From Dehalococcoidia bacterium (GTDB taxonomy: Bacteria > Chloroflexota > Dehalococcoidia > Bin125): 64,000 nucleotides of DNA. The notes beneath the pieces were generated by a model, which did not search any database, had not been told where the DNA came from, and saw only the letters and a program-made list of their open reading frames with translations. The stretch lies in NCBI GenBank assembly GCA_022825855.1, contig JAJDWB010000008.1, positions 1-64,000 of the forward strand, written 5' to 3'. Positions 9,845 to 15,199 of the stretch are shown in pieces (within the stretch, counting starts at the first letter, position 1; every line of letters starts with the position of its first letter). Position numbers and translations under genes: made by a program.

Positions 9845-9874
9845 GATGGTAGCGCGTTTTCGTGGAGGTGGGGG

Positions 9875-9909
9875 CCCTCACCCTCACCCTCTCCCTCGGG
9901 GAGAGGGGA
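9875..9909. repeat. Family A palindromic repeat, copy A2
   Basis: The element is ccctcaccctca followed by the hairpin ccctctccc-tc-ggggagaggg, then the gatcggag tail. It is directly followed by the family B element, and a reversed family A-like end lies at about 9985-10010, so the whole 9874-10010 stretch is a composite repeat between two minus-strand genes. Confidence 0.85.
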
Positions 9910-9915
9910 TCGGAG

Positions 9916-10624: not shown

Positions 10625-10703
10625 GGGGTTCTCCTTATCGGGGATGTGATTGAGGGGCGGAGATTCCTGGATACAAATGTATGCGGAGTGTGGCTTGAGA
10701 GGG

Positions 10704-10738
10704 CCCTCACCCTAACCCTCTCCCTCGGGGAGAGGGGA
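10704..10738. repeat. Family A palindromic repeat, copy A3
   Basis: The sequence is ccctcaccctaa followed by ccctctccctcggggagagggga, identical over its length to copy A5 at 10954-10988. Confidence 0.9.
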
Positions 10739-10810
10739 CCGGAAGGGGGAGGGGAACCCCGTATACATCGGGGACGGGGTTGGGGGAGACACTTCCGGTT
10801 TGCGTGGGGG

Positions 10811-10900: not shown

Positions 10901-10953
10901 GCCCCGTATACATCTGGGACGGGGTTGGATGGCACGTCCAGTTGGCGTGGGCG

Positions 10954-10988
10954 CCCTCACCCTAACCCTCTCCCTCGGGGAGAGGGGA
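10954..10988. repeat. Family A palindromic repeat, copy A5
   Basis: This copy matches A3 base for base over 35 bases and borders the NYN remnant. Confidence 0.9.
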
Positions 10989-11001
10989 CCGGAGGCATCT
11001 C

Positions 11002-11355: not shown

Positions 11356-12579
11356 ATGACCGCAACCGTTGGCAACACCGGGATCAGCATCGAGGCACTC
11401 TCCAAGCTGGATGGGCACCTGTTGAAGCGGTATGTGGAGCCGGAGAAGATTGCGGGGTGTTTGACGTTGGTTTCGCGGCGGGGGGAGGTTGCGCATCTGT
11501 CGGCGATGGGGTCGATGGATCGCGAGCGCGGGAAGCCGATGGCGACGGATACGATCTTCCGGTTCTACTCGATGACGAAGCCGATCACGTCGGTGGCGCT
11601 GATGCAGTTGCACGAGCGAGGGATGTTCCAGCTCACGGATCCGGTGAGCCGGTTCATCCCGCAGTGGCGGGATCTGCAAGTGATGTCCGATCCCGACGGA
11701 CCGGTGACGGACACATGCCCGCCAGGGCGGCCGATGTCGGTGCGCGATGTGCTGTCGCACCAGAGCGGGCTGACCTACGGGTTCATGGAGGGGTCGCTGG
11801 AGATGGCCTACAACCGGGCCGACGTGTACTCGGCCGGGACGATGCGGGGCCGCGATCTGCAGTCGATGATCGATCGTCTGGCGGAGATGCCGCTGAAGTT
11901 CTCGCCGGGGGAGCGGTGGAACTACGGGGTCTCGACCGACGTCTGCGGATACCTGGTGGAGACGATCTCGGGTCAGCGCTTCGACGAGTACTTGCAGGAG
12001 CACGTGTTCGATCCGCTGGGGATGGCCGATACGGGATTCGACGTGCCGGCGGAGAAGCTTGAGCGGTTCGCTGCGAACTATGAGCGCGGTCCGGACCGGC
12101 GGTTGCGGTTGCTGGACGATCCGGCGACCAGCCACTACGGCGAGCCGCAGACGTTTTTCTCGGGCGGCGGCGGACTGGTGTCGACGGCGGAGGACTATCA
12201 CCGCTTCTGCCAGATGCTGCTCAATGGCGGCGAGCTGGACGGGGCTCGGCTGCTGGGTCCGAAGACGATCGAGCTGATGACGATGAATCATCTGCCGGAC
12301 GGAGCGGACCTGTCGGAGCGGGCGCTGGGCTCGTTCTCGGAGACAGCCAACGATGGGGTCGGGTTCGGGCTGGGCTTTGCGATGATCGTGGACTTGCCGC
12401 GGACGCAGAACGTGGGATCGGTGGGCGAGTACTACTGGGGCGGGGCGGCGAGCACGATTTTCTGGATCGATCCGGCGGAGGAGATGATCGTGATCTTCCT
12501 GACGCAGTTCATGCCGTCGGGGACGTTCAACTTCCGGGGTCAGATCAAGCAGATCCTGTACCCGGGTCTGCTGGACTGA
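11356..12579 (+). CDS. Beta-lactamase-family serine hydrolase (esterase/class C-like)
   Basis: A 407-residue penicillin-binding-protein-fold hydrolase. The nucleophile motif S-x-x-K is SMTK at residues 72-75 in FRFYSMTKPITSVALMQL. RPMSVRDVLSHQSGLTYGF is the usual helix after the active site, and ERWNYGVSTDVCGYLVE carries the tyrosine of the second motif. Near the C-terminus GLGFAMIVDL to YYWGGAASTIFWIDP resembles the third-motif strand. There is no signal peptide, so a cytoplasmic esterase or amidase is likelier than a beta-lactamase. The frame is open upstream into repeat-derived sequence, but homology begins at ATG 11356. Substrate unknown. Confidence 0.85.
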   Translation: MTATVGNTGISIEALSKLDGHLLKRYVEPEKIAGCLTLVSRRGEVAHLSAMGSMDRERGKPMATDTIFRFYSMTKPITSVALMQLHERGMFQLTDPVSRFIPQWRDLQVMSDPDGPVTDTCPPGRPMSVRDVLSHQSGLTYGFMEGSLEMAYNRADVYSAGTMRGRDLQSMIDRLAEMPLKFSPGERWNYGVSTDVCGYLVETISGQRFDEYLQEHVFDPLGMADTGFDVPAEKLERFAANYERGPDRRLRLLDDPATSHYGEPQTFFSGGGGLVSTAEDYHRFCQMLLNGGELDGARLLGPKTIELMTMNHLPDGADLSERALGSFSETANDGVGFGLGFAMIVDLPRTQNVGSVGEYYWGGAASTIFWIDPAEEMIVIFLTQFMPSGTFNFRGQIKQILYPGLLD

Positions 12580-12640
12580 ACGGCCTTGATAAACATGATC
12601 GGCGCGAGACAGCACGGCGGCCTGCGGAGAGAGACACGAG

Positions 12641-15160
12641 ATGGACATTGACATCCGACAGCTCGCGAGAGAGTTCGACGATGAGTTCGGCAGCAACGCT
12701 CAGCGACACGAGAAAAAACTGGCTGCGATTCCGGAAGCCCTCAACGCCGACGAGGCTGTGACCTTGATCACGGATGTCCAGTTGGTTGGAGCCTTCCGAG
12801 CAGATGTCCTAGTTGCCACAGAAACGCGTCTCCTGATCGTCCGAAAAGACGGGAAACGGATCGACGAATACGACCTGTCCGAACTTCTGTCCCTGACTCT
12901 CAAAGAACCCGACGGTGTCGGCAGCCTGTTGACCGTTGTCACCACGTCCGACGAACTGCAGGGCCGGATCCACTCGGAACCCGCCGCGGTCGCTCTCCTG
13001 CAAGTGATCAACTATGCTTCCATCGCTTTACGAGCACTACACGACCTTCCGCCACCAACAATCACCATGCCGTCGACTCGAACGGTTGATCCCACCATTG
13101 CAAAGATCATCCGCGCGTCCGACCGAGACTACGGCACCTTCATCGCGCGGCATCGCTCCAAAATTGCAGCCATACCAAGTGCGCTACTACTTAAAGAGAG
13201 CGTTGTCAGCATCATCGACCTTACACTCGAAGGTGCCGTACGGACTGACATTGCAGTCTGTACGGACAAACGACTGCTCATCATCCGACGCGAAGGCGAC
13301 CAAGTCGACTCCATCCACCTCAACTCCATCCGCAGCGTAACGCTCGGTAAGGATACTGTCGGGGAACCCAAGCGGCTCACCATTAAGTACGACACTAACA
13401 AGACTTGGCAAGCGGCCATCGACTCGCCGAAAGCTGCGAAGCGCTTTGCTCGCACAGTTCGATTAGCCATAAAGAAGCAAGGCGTGACATCCACGAACTC
13501 TTCACAGGACAAGACCGATCAAGTTGACGCACATGCTCTAACACGTCAGAACACTCCCACTGATTCCGATTTACCTCCCTCTGCCTCCACGGCCCACTAC
13601 TCCCTGGAAGAGATTGACAACTTGCTGCGACAACCACTCCACTCCATACCTCACGAGGTGCGTGAACGGCTCTATGCTCACTTTGCAGACATGTTTGGCT
13701 TTCCTCTGCAGAAGTACAAGAAACCCCTTGCTGCCTTACTAAGCCTCGTCGCAGATGATGAACGCCTAATCCTCCTCCTTGAAATCAATCGCCACCGCAC
13801 TTCATCGCCAAAGCTGATTGCACTCACGAGCAAGAACATAATTGTTCAAGGCCCTCGAGCAGGTGGATTAGACATAATCGCCCTGCACACTATCGAGTCA
13901 GTCTCAACAACTGCAACAGGCGCTGCCGGGACCGTCCGGATTATACTCTTGGACGGTAAAGTGAGAACGCTTCGTTTTGTGCCCGAGAGTTGCATTGGAA
14001 CTCTAGTCGAGGCTGCAGAGGCAGCACGAATAGAAGAAGCGGACCGCGTCAGACAAGAAATGACACAACGGTTCAACCGACTCGAGGATTCGCTCACCGA
14101 CTCGATGCGCAACGAGATCATGCGGAACTATAGTCAGATCGCGGACCGAAACGGCATCATCCTAAACGAATTCAACCTGCGACAGTTCGCACTTGTTGAC
14201 CACCTCATACAAGAGAAAGGACCGGGCTTTGGTGAGAAATCGCAACTATGGCGTGAGGAATTCTTGTTGATAAGTTGCCCTGACTTGTTGGAGTTGGCCG
14301 CCTCTACAAGCGAGGAGCTGGACGAAGCAACCACTGATGAACTGCTTAATGTGGGGCAAAACTCACTCGCAAGGCTCCTCGCCTTCTTAGCGCTACGATT
14401 GGATGAGGTCGAGTCAGGTGATACCGATATGTTACGGATAGTCCTGACAGAGTCGCTAGGTATCGATGAAGGGGAGATGTCGCAAGGGATGTGGTTGGCT
14501 AAGCCCAATGACTTAAGCCCTTTCGTTGAATCGAGTCTGGACCTGAGCTACAGCGGGCAGTACTTGCCAACAGCAGTCCATTCCCTTTCAGAAGATCAAT
14601 TGACGCGAGTGTACGATCAGATCGCCAGAGAGACGGTGGACTTTGAGGCGTTGACCAAATGGCAACTCAGCCACTTGCCCGAAGTTATGTTGCCGGGCGA
14701 GTTGCTCATTTGGTTGGCCGAAGGGTACCTACAAGGCTCCTTCAAGGACCCCGGTGACTCCGGTGGCACGATGATCGCCGTCACCGACCGCCGTCTCCTT
14801 CTGCTCGTAGATCCGTGGCTGGCAACCAATCAGGTCAAAGCTTTCCGACTGACTGATATCACTGCGGTTCATCGAGACGGCGGATTCATTACTGGAGGGT
14901 TCCGCTTCCGAGAGTCAGGGGGAGGGCAGAGAAAGATCACCAAGATGAACCAATCTGCCGCCGATTCCATTGTCGCGAAACTCCAAGCAGCGATTGACGC
15001 GGTTCACTCGCCACAACCTCAGCGGCCCTTAGTCCAAGAGTCACGACCACCTGCCTCAGATGTCGCCGACCAACTGGAAAAGCTGGCCAACCTGGTCGAC
15101 AGAGGATTCCTCACGCCGGAGGAGTTCGCCGAACAGAAGGCCAAGCTGCTGAACGGCTAG
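12641..15160 (+). CDS. Large protein with repeated PH-like modules and C-terminal SHOCT motif
   Basis: I do not recognise this 839-residue protein as a whole. It contains repeated bacterial-PH-like modules, each with an E-x-V/L start, a strand of the form TxxRLLIVR and a following DL/IxSVTL strand. They lie near residues 25-120 (ATETRLLIVRKDGKRIDEYDL), 155-275 (CTDKRLLIIRREGDQVDSIHL), 335-465 (LTSKNIIVQ) and 680-785 (VTDRRLLLLVDP). The final 30 residues (QLEKLANLVDRGFLTPEEFA and on) are a SHOCT motif, a short helical hairpin usually at protein ends. No membrane segment is seen. Base composition is much lower in GC than the neighbours (30 of 60 at 13501-13560), so acquisition by transfer is likely. 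Function unknown. Confidence 0.7.
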   Translation: MDIDIRQLAREFDDEFGSNAQRHEKKLAAIPEALNADEAVTLITDVQLVGAFRADVLVATETRLLIVRKDGKRIDEYDLSELLSLTLKEPDGVGSLLTVVTTSDELQGRIHSEPAAVALLQVINYASIALRALHDLPPPTITMPSTRTVDPTIAKIIRASDRDYGTFIARHRSKIAAIPSALLLKESVVSIIDLTLEGAVRTDIAVCTDKRLLIIRREGDQVDSIHLNSIRSVTLGKDTVGEPKRLTIKYDTNKTWQAAIDSPKAAKRFARTVRLAIKKQGVTSTNSSQDKTDQVDAHALTRQNTPTDSDLPPSASTAHYSLEEIDNLLRQPLHSIPHEVRERLYAHFADMFGFPLQKYKKPLAALLSLVADDERLILLLEINRHRTSSPKLIALTSKNIIVQGPRAGGLDIIALHTIESVSTTATGAAGTVRIILLDGKVRTLRFVPESCIGTLVEAAEAARIEEADRVRQEMTQRFNRLEDSLTDSMRNEIMRNYSQIADRNGIILNEFNLRQFALVDHLIQEKGPGFGEKSQLWREEFLLISCPDLLELAASTSEELDEATTDELLNVGQNSLARLLAFLALRLDEVESGDTDMLRIVLTESLGIDEGEMSQGMWLAKPNDLSPFVESSLDLSYSGQYLPTAVHSLSEDQLTRVYDQIARETVDFEALTKWQLSHLPEVMLPGELLIWLAEGYLQGSFKDPGDSGGTMIAVTDRRLLLLVDPWLATNQVKAFRLTDITAVHRDGGFITGGFRFRESGGGQRKITKMNQSAADSIVAKLQAAIDAVHSPQPQRPLVQESRPPASDVADQLEKLANLVDRGFLTPEEFAEQKAKLLNG

Positions 15161-15199
15161 ACTTCGGGCAGTTTCGCTGCTAACGAACCTGGATTTGAG

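Follow-up and report, generated by a model that had tools for sequence, protein, structure and literature searches.

PH-like proteins with a SHOCT motif normally carry a single PH-like module. A gene in a Dehalococcoidia genome strings several such modules together in one chain, which raises the question of what kind of protein it encodes, how the array arose and what it may do. We examined this gene within a 64,000-nucleotide stretch of genomic DNA (the window), and positions given below are those of the window.

A four-module protein with a C-terminal SHOCT motif

The gene is a single uninterrupted open reading frame of 839 codons on the forward strand (12641-15160), with an ATG start. A plausible Shine-Dalgarno-like sequence (GGAGAGAG, 12626-12633, forward strand) ends 7 nt ahead of the ATG. 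The open reading frame, Pfam, a module profile and structure models describe its 839-residue product as a tandem bPH_3 array with a C-terminal SHOCT motif. Pfam recognizes bPH_3 (Pfam accession PF14470) in three stretches (E 5.7e-19, 68.8 bits against a cut-off of 23 bits). SHOCT, taken here as a 28-residue motif at the C-terminus that reaches the 27-bit cut-off of Pfam accession PF09851, covers residues 810-837 of 839 (15068-15151, forward strand; E 9.1e-9, 35.2 bits). A profile made solely from modules in other genomes recovered all four modules in the window protein, at residues 13-97, 149-280, 344-466 and 650-791. An earlier note, made from the sequence alone, had proposed four PH-like modules and a SHOCT motif in one soluble protein, and Pfam, this profile and AlphaFold agree with it.

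Module 1 (residues 5-135; 12653-13045, forward strand) consists of two helices, a PH-like barrel and a C-terminal helix (profile 31.7 bits; model pLDDT about 80 over the barrel). Module 2 (residues 149-281; 13085-13483, forward strand; profile 33.0 bits), also seen in the structure models, is nearest to module 1, at 36% identity. Module 3 (residues 338-466; 13652-14038, forward strand) is divergent, with a profile score of 20-25 bits and strands and a helix in the model. Chance or composition is ruled out as its source, as it scores 25 bits against at most 4.4 in its 50 shuffles. It is followed by an orphan, mostly helical segment (residues 467-645; 14039-14575, forward strand), modeled as helices at low pLDDT (mostly below 50), which matches neither the module profile nor Pfam and takes no confident fold. 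Module 4 (residues 650-791; 14588-15013, forward strand) scores 63.8 bits and is of the type common to single-module relatives. The strand of xTDxRLLIVR type that the earlier note had placed in every module is present in modules 1 (ATETRLLIVR), 2 (CTDKRLLIIR) and 4 (AVTDRRLLLL) and degenerate in module 3 (ALTSKNIIVQ).

Residues 22-103 (12704-12949) have a weak similarity to the beginning of NCBIfam NF052233 (30.5 bits, where the cut-off is 880), which suggests from sequence that this cyanophycin metabolism-associated ABC transporter family also carries a PH-like N-terminal domain.

Predicted fold

AlphaFold modeled the entire protein at low overall confidence (pLDDT 58, pTM 0.27). In all four regions, the model has a helical lead-in, strands in PH order and a closing C-terminal helix, so the segments are not unrelated folds. 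Modules 1 and 2 alone, modeled with an alignment of two-module fragments, reached pLDDT 76.5 and pTM 0.49. VIA-align matched the models to Vps36, MTMR, FERM F3 and similar domains over 85-125 residues (Z 11.6-12.9). The top Foldseek matches were tandem PH proteins, namely Rtt106, FACT subunits and BBS5. Eukaryotic Rtt106, Spt16/Pob3 and BBS5 likewise have two PH-like domains in a row, but their arrangement and sequence differ from those of the window protein, and superposition on both domains together is poor (rmsd 13-21). Judging by the models, the likeness to these eukaryotic proteins is one of fold only. The modules are thus predicted to be PH-like, whereas their arrangement relative to one another is not predicted, because pTM is low in both models and the two-domain fit is poor. 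A sequence search for solved relatives returned none that covers the whole window protein.

The bacterial PHb1 and PHb2 domains (Pfam accession PF08000; Xu et al., 2010, PMC2817789) share the PH-like fold. They differ from the window protein in Pfam family, in having one domain per chain and in their ring assembly, and the window protein has no match to PF08000 at E 10. In PHb crystal structures, separate PHb1 and PHb2 chains form rings through the strand-5 edge (C5 and C12; PMC2817789). The four modules might by analogy be a covalently linked ring or arch, packing pseudo-symmetrically against each other instead of binding partners independently. We regard this as very unlikely, given that module number varies among arrays (2, 3, 4 or 6), that linker lengths differ and that the two-module model has no firm interface.

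Single-module relatives on phages and plasmids

The nearest single-module relatives of the window protein are encoded on phages and plasmids. The protein matches phrog_2700 at E 2.5e-29, with the best stretch at residues 657-838. Proteins of this type (PF14470 with PF09851) have a helical lead-in, a barrel, a linker and a SHOCT motif at the extreme end, as the window protein does. They differ from it in having one module and mostly about 170-330 residues, as opposed to four modules, 839 residues and an orphan helical segment. Each relative on a phage or viral contig whose open reading frames were read has one module, and plasmid matches span one module and SHOCT. The expectation that PH-like/SHOCT proteins are normally single-module proteins is thus borne out among the relatives read here.

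Several of these genes lie in lysogeny-type surroundings, with an integrase or repressor gene adjacent. The single-module gene adjoins an integrase gene in both Lactobacillus phage JNU_P11 and contig L111. A Staphylococcus plasmid record that includes phage genes has it flanked by an ImmA/IrrE-type gene on one side and a PemK/MazF and integrase pair on the other. Moraxella phage Mcat13 differs in having the gene among tail genes. On two prophage-like contigs (L088:2523-4707 and L089:4977-7161), a single-module bPH_3-SHOCT gene is next to genes for a HipA-like kinase and a DUF3037 protein, and the three possibly form a unit.

Two further layouts were observed. A 406-residue viral-contig protein (L112:4953-6170) has hydrophobic segments after SHOCT, which is therefore internal. 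In L102:2132-4867 and L103:2453-5188, a bPH_3 match is in frame with a region that is ABC transporter-like by translation, with a cysteine-rich segment between them.

Composition and surroundings of the array gene

The earlier note had remarked that the GC content of the gene is far below that of its neighbors, and this is the case. The gene has a GC content of 0.543, compared with 0.678 +/- 0.018 in other 2520-nt segments (minimum 0.617; z -7.6). Its GC3 is 0.61, against 0.87-0.88 in three adjoining genes. Relatives with matched composition, which would have spoken for vertical inheritance, were not seen. An array gene in another genus of the same family (G017) has GC3 0.68 against 0.85-0.87 for the genes that flank it; GC3 is 0.64 in the G004 homologue and 0.72 in the G263 homologue. 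The G017 and G263 arrays are thus low-GC, like the window gene. A promoter and terminator scan over the array gene gave results at chance level.

A nearby repeat hotspot had also been noted. The repeats are real: a 48-nt family with a palindromic core (CCCTCACCCTAACCCTCTCCCTCGGGGAGAGGGG) occurs at 9868-9915, 10697-10744 and 10947-10994. By sequence, they resemble dispersed REP-type elements and are unrelated to the array. They lie 1.6 kb upstream, beyond a conserved beta-lactamase gene, and no link to the array gene was seen.

A probably turnover-prone chromosomal slot

The array gene occupies a slot between a beta-lactamase-family gene (Pfam accession PF00144; 11356-12579, forward strand) and a putative cyclase gene (Pfam accession PF04199; 15200-16180, forward strand), both of which are kept across the genus. 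In several congeners, the beta-lactamase gene adjoins a tandem paralogue (63-73% identical) that is absent from the window genome. We could read across the slot in 13 of 14 congeners, the exception being G008, which has the two flanking genes on separate contigs. The slot is empty in 12 of the 13, with 46-50 bp between the flanking genes. The thirteenth, G012, has 637 bp of different DNA, at the end of which a 31-nt stretch matches the final 31 nt of the array gene with 84% identity and in the same place (score 37; 300 shuffles gave a mean of 23.3 and a best of 36). From this sequence match, it is a probable remnant of the 3' end of an array gene. The G012 slot also contains a different low-GC open reading frame (L065:2677-3180, reverse strand; 167 residues, coiled-coil-like), showing that the slot takes varied cargo.

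The same slot holds 4.2 kb in G017, with an array protein gene followed by two small open reading frames (L064:6857-7722, forward strand). The product of one has about 100 residues and weakly matches DpdD (PADLOC E 0.002), and that of the other has 188 residues and a sub-threshold DUF4406 match (E 0.12).

A 9-bp direct repeat (CTGAACGGC) lies exactly at the edges of the DNA that fills the slot, with its left copy at 12576-12584 and its right copy at 15149-15157. Joining over both copies yields the empty-site sequence of the congeners. The array gene could then be a recent insertion of a discrete cassette with the repeat as its target-site duplication, as opposed to an old resident deleted in most congeners. 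Its low GC3 fits a cassette, as does the flanking-gene tree, in which the window genome (nearest G007) is nested among genomes that lack the array gene. We nonetheless consider this origin unlikely. Neither a transposase nor a terminal inverted repeat was found in the open reading frame list or the sequence, and the right repeat copy reads as normal coding sequence where a SHOCT protein ends. The array in the same slot of a sister genus and the 31-nt match in G012 also weaken a plain one-time horizontal insertion; because of them, the array gene appears to be not simply a recent stray. We read the slot as old and turnover-prone, with losses via the short repeat and, possibly, gene exchange through its flanks; independent insertions are also conceivable.

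The hexamer TAGACT (15158-15163, forward strand) is found ahead of the cyclase gene in every relative examined, and in the window its TAG serves as the array gene's stop codon. It is kept even in G017, where it lies ahead of the cyclase gene about 1.1 kb from the end of the array, and it is therefore probably a promoter or leader element of the cyclase gene. The same observation weakens the idea that the conserved CTAGACT by the empty site is a mere scar of a deleted gene.

Arrays of differing module number in other genomes

The earlier note had called the architecture unfamiliar. It is not unique: other genomes of the phylum also encode tandem bPH_3-SHOCT arrays, with 2, 3, 4 and 6 modules. 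The G017 array (1019 residues) has six bPH_3 stretches and SHOCT, and four of its six modules are 75-84% identical to one another. It shares 41% identity with the window protein over residues 641-839, in addition to the chromosomal slot. G263, from the same class as the window genome, encodes three modules and SHOCT in 460 residues. This array adjoins an Nmad3 gene (Pfam accession PF18754, E 3e-57), and L104:2483-5775 beside it includes the Nmad3 gene and a gene for a HerA-type ATPase. G626 and G475, which belong to a single genus in another class of the phylum, have arrays of four modules (615 residues) and two modules (315 residues) at one syntenic site. In our reading of the open reading frames, that site has a Rieske-type gene upstream and an amine-oxidase-like gene downstream. 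These four arrays resemble the window protein in layout, module type and SHOCT end. They differ from it in module number and in N-terminal modules that would have been amplified separately, and no counterpart of the orphan segment was found in them.

The search for multi-module arrays covered this phylum and phage, plasmid and viral collections. A bPH_3 match was present in 73 of 400 sampled genomes of the phylum, and more than one match per open reading frame in only G000, G626 and G475; this sample did not contain G017, and the first two G263 modules are below the reach of Pfam.

In module trees, copies cluster mostly by protein or genus. Support was 100/99 for F/T (79/99 once the G263 modules were added), 100/99 for S2-S5, 100/100 for K1-K2 and 99/99 for P1-P2. 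The first modules of G626 and G475 are 67% identical and the last modules 56%, as corresponding pairs, and the two internal G626 modules are each other's nearest. The single module of G004 clusters with the last modules of G017 and the window protein (84/89). A single clade of this family's last modules and one set of phage modules gave p-AU 0.21. From these trees, in which the deep branches are weak, we infer that the array ends are old and that the N-terminal modules were amplified separately, and hence that arrays arose at least twice.

Orthologous modules of G626 and G475 have dN/dS of 0.31-0.37 and are under purifying selection. Among the young G017 copies S2-S5, dN/dS is 0.90-1.64, which is only suggestive of near-neutral to fast change because synonymous distances among these copies are small. 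Values near 1 may reflect relaxed constraint instead of an arms race. Such values among the youngest copies, together with the empty slots and the probable G012 remnant, are what one would expect of neutral or decaying cargo that is kept for a while after acquisition, expands by unequal recombination and is lost, with little benefit to the host. The purifying selection on G626 and G475 modules argues against this, as do the 2520 nt that remain open in the window and the recurrence of the same SHOCT-ended layout in several lineages, and we judge it a rather improbable explanation.

Proposed function

The window protein lacks a transmembrane segment (the highest mean hydropathy over 19 residues is 1.57, at residue 115), and no enzyme motif is evident in it; we therefore propose that it is a soluble binding scaffold. 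Our preferred reading, which we hold tentatively, is a multivalent scaffold amplified from a phage/plasmid-type protein and most likely used in conflict with phages. The starting point would have been a phage/plasmid-type bPH_3-SHOCT protein, whose one bPH_3 module was duplicated in tandem in the N-terminal part while the last module and SHOCT tail were retained as a conserved end. Through avidity, the modules would probably engage membrane or a protein partner that is repeated or oligomeric, and the SHOCT tail may dock a second partner. The array gene is accessory, its slot standing empty in most congeners, and its product might act by blocking or titrating some component of the infecting phage, in the way suggested for prophage exclusion (Sie) proteins.

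Phage exclusion is the leading guess, drawn by analogy, because the single-module relatives have a phage/plasmid setting, the slot is accessory and there are precedents in PHb domains, sie285 and SNIPE. PHb domains, PHb1 among them, occur in phage lysogeny modules (PMC2817789). The prophage sie gene sie285 encodes a product with a PHb domain (PMC6127208), and PH-like domains are present on some SNIPE defence homologues (PMC13190303). Lactococcal prophage Sie proteins (PMC6127208) thus offer a PH-like module, in sie285, and a lysogeny-region setting like that of the window protein's relatives. A block of DNA injection is described there for sie309 and sie312 but not for sie285 with its PHb domain (PMC6127208). 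Sie proteins also have a membrane-spanning or hydrophobic N-terminus that the window protein lacks, and they belong to a phage lysogeny module, whereas the window gene lies between genes kept in the genus.

The earlier note had suggested looking for defence or stress genes near homologues; one homologue, the G263 array, lies beside an Nmad3 gene. In the window itself, neither defence nor stress genes were found as neighbors. No defence, phage or mobile-element gene was recognized beside the array gene, and no PADLOC family matches the protein at E 1, both of which count against a phage role. A further point against the preferred reading is that oligomerization of SHOCT was unsupported when tested (PMC3581485). 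The missing phage neighbors would fit the main rival by analogy, a host envelope or stress scaffold in which the array organizes a membrane-stress complex unrelated to phages and its accessory distribution reflects niche. In Bacillus subtilis, antibiotics, heat and alkaline shock all induce the PHb protein YozO, which is under sigma-W control (PMC2817789). SHOCT is frequently found together with band-7/SPFH and other oligomeric membrane proteins (PMC3581485). Such a role is conceivable, if on the unlikely side: few genomes of the family and class have the gene, its composition is foreign, its nearest single-module relatives are on phages and plasmids, and module number changes.

Significance

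The PH-like module and the SHOCT tag are already known; with the tools used and in openly licensed papers, we did not find the expandable array itself described. A speculative extension of the preferred phage-related reading, to which we attach little probability, is that tandem bPH_3-SHOCT arrays form a class of phage-recognition proteins that evolves rapidly and has so far gone undescribed. Module number and sequence would set the target, and the last module and SHOCT would couple binding to an effector or host machinery.

Phages and plasmids widely encode bPH_3-SHOCT proteins, which have no assigned function. Sister species have different module numbers at one site, and the arrays seem to have originated more than once, which together suggest that multivalency is selected. 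These natural arrays offer a handle on the binding partners of single modules and on the role of SHOCT.
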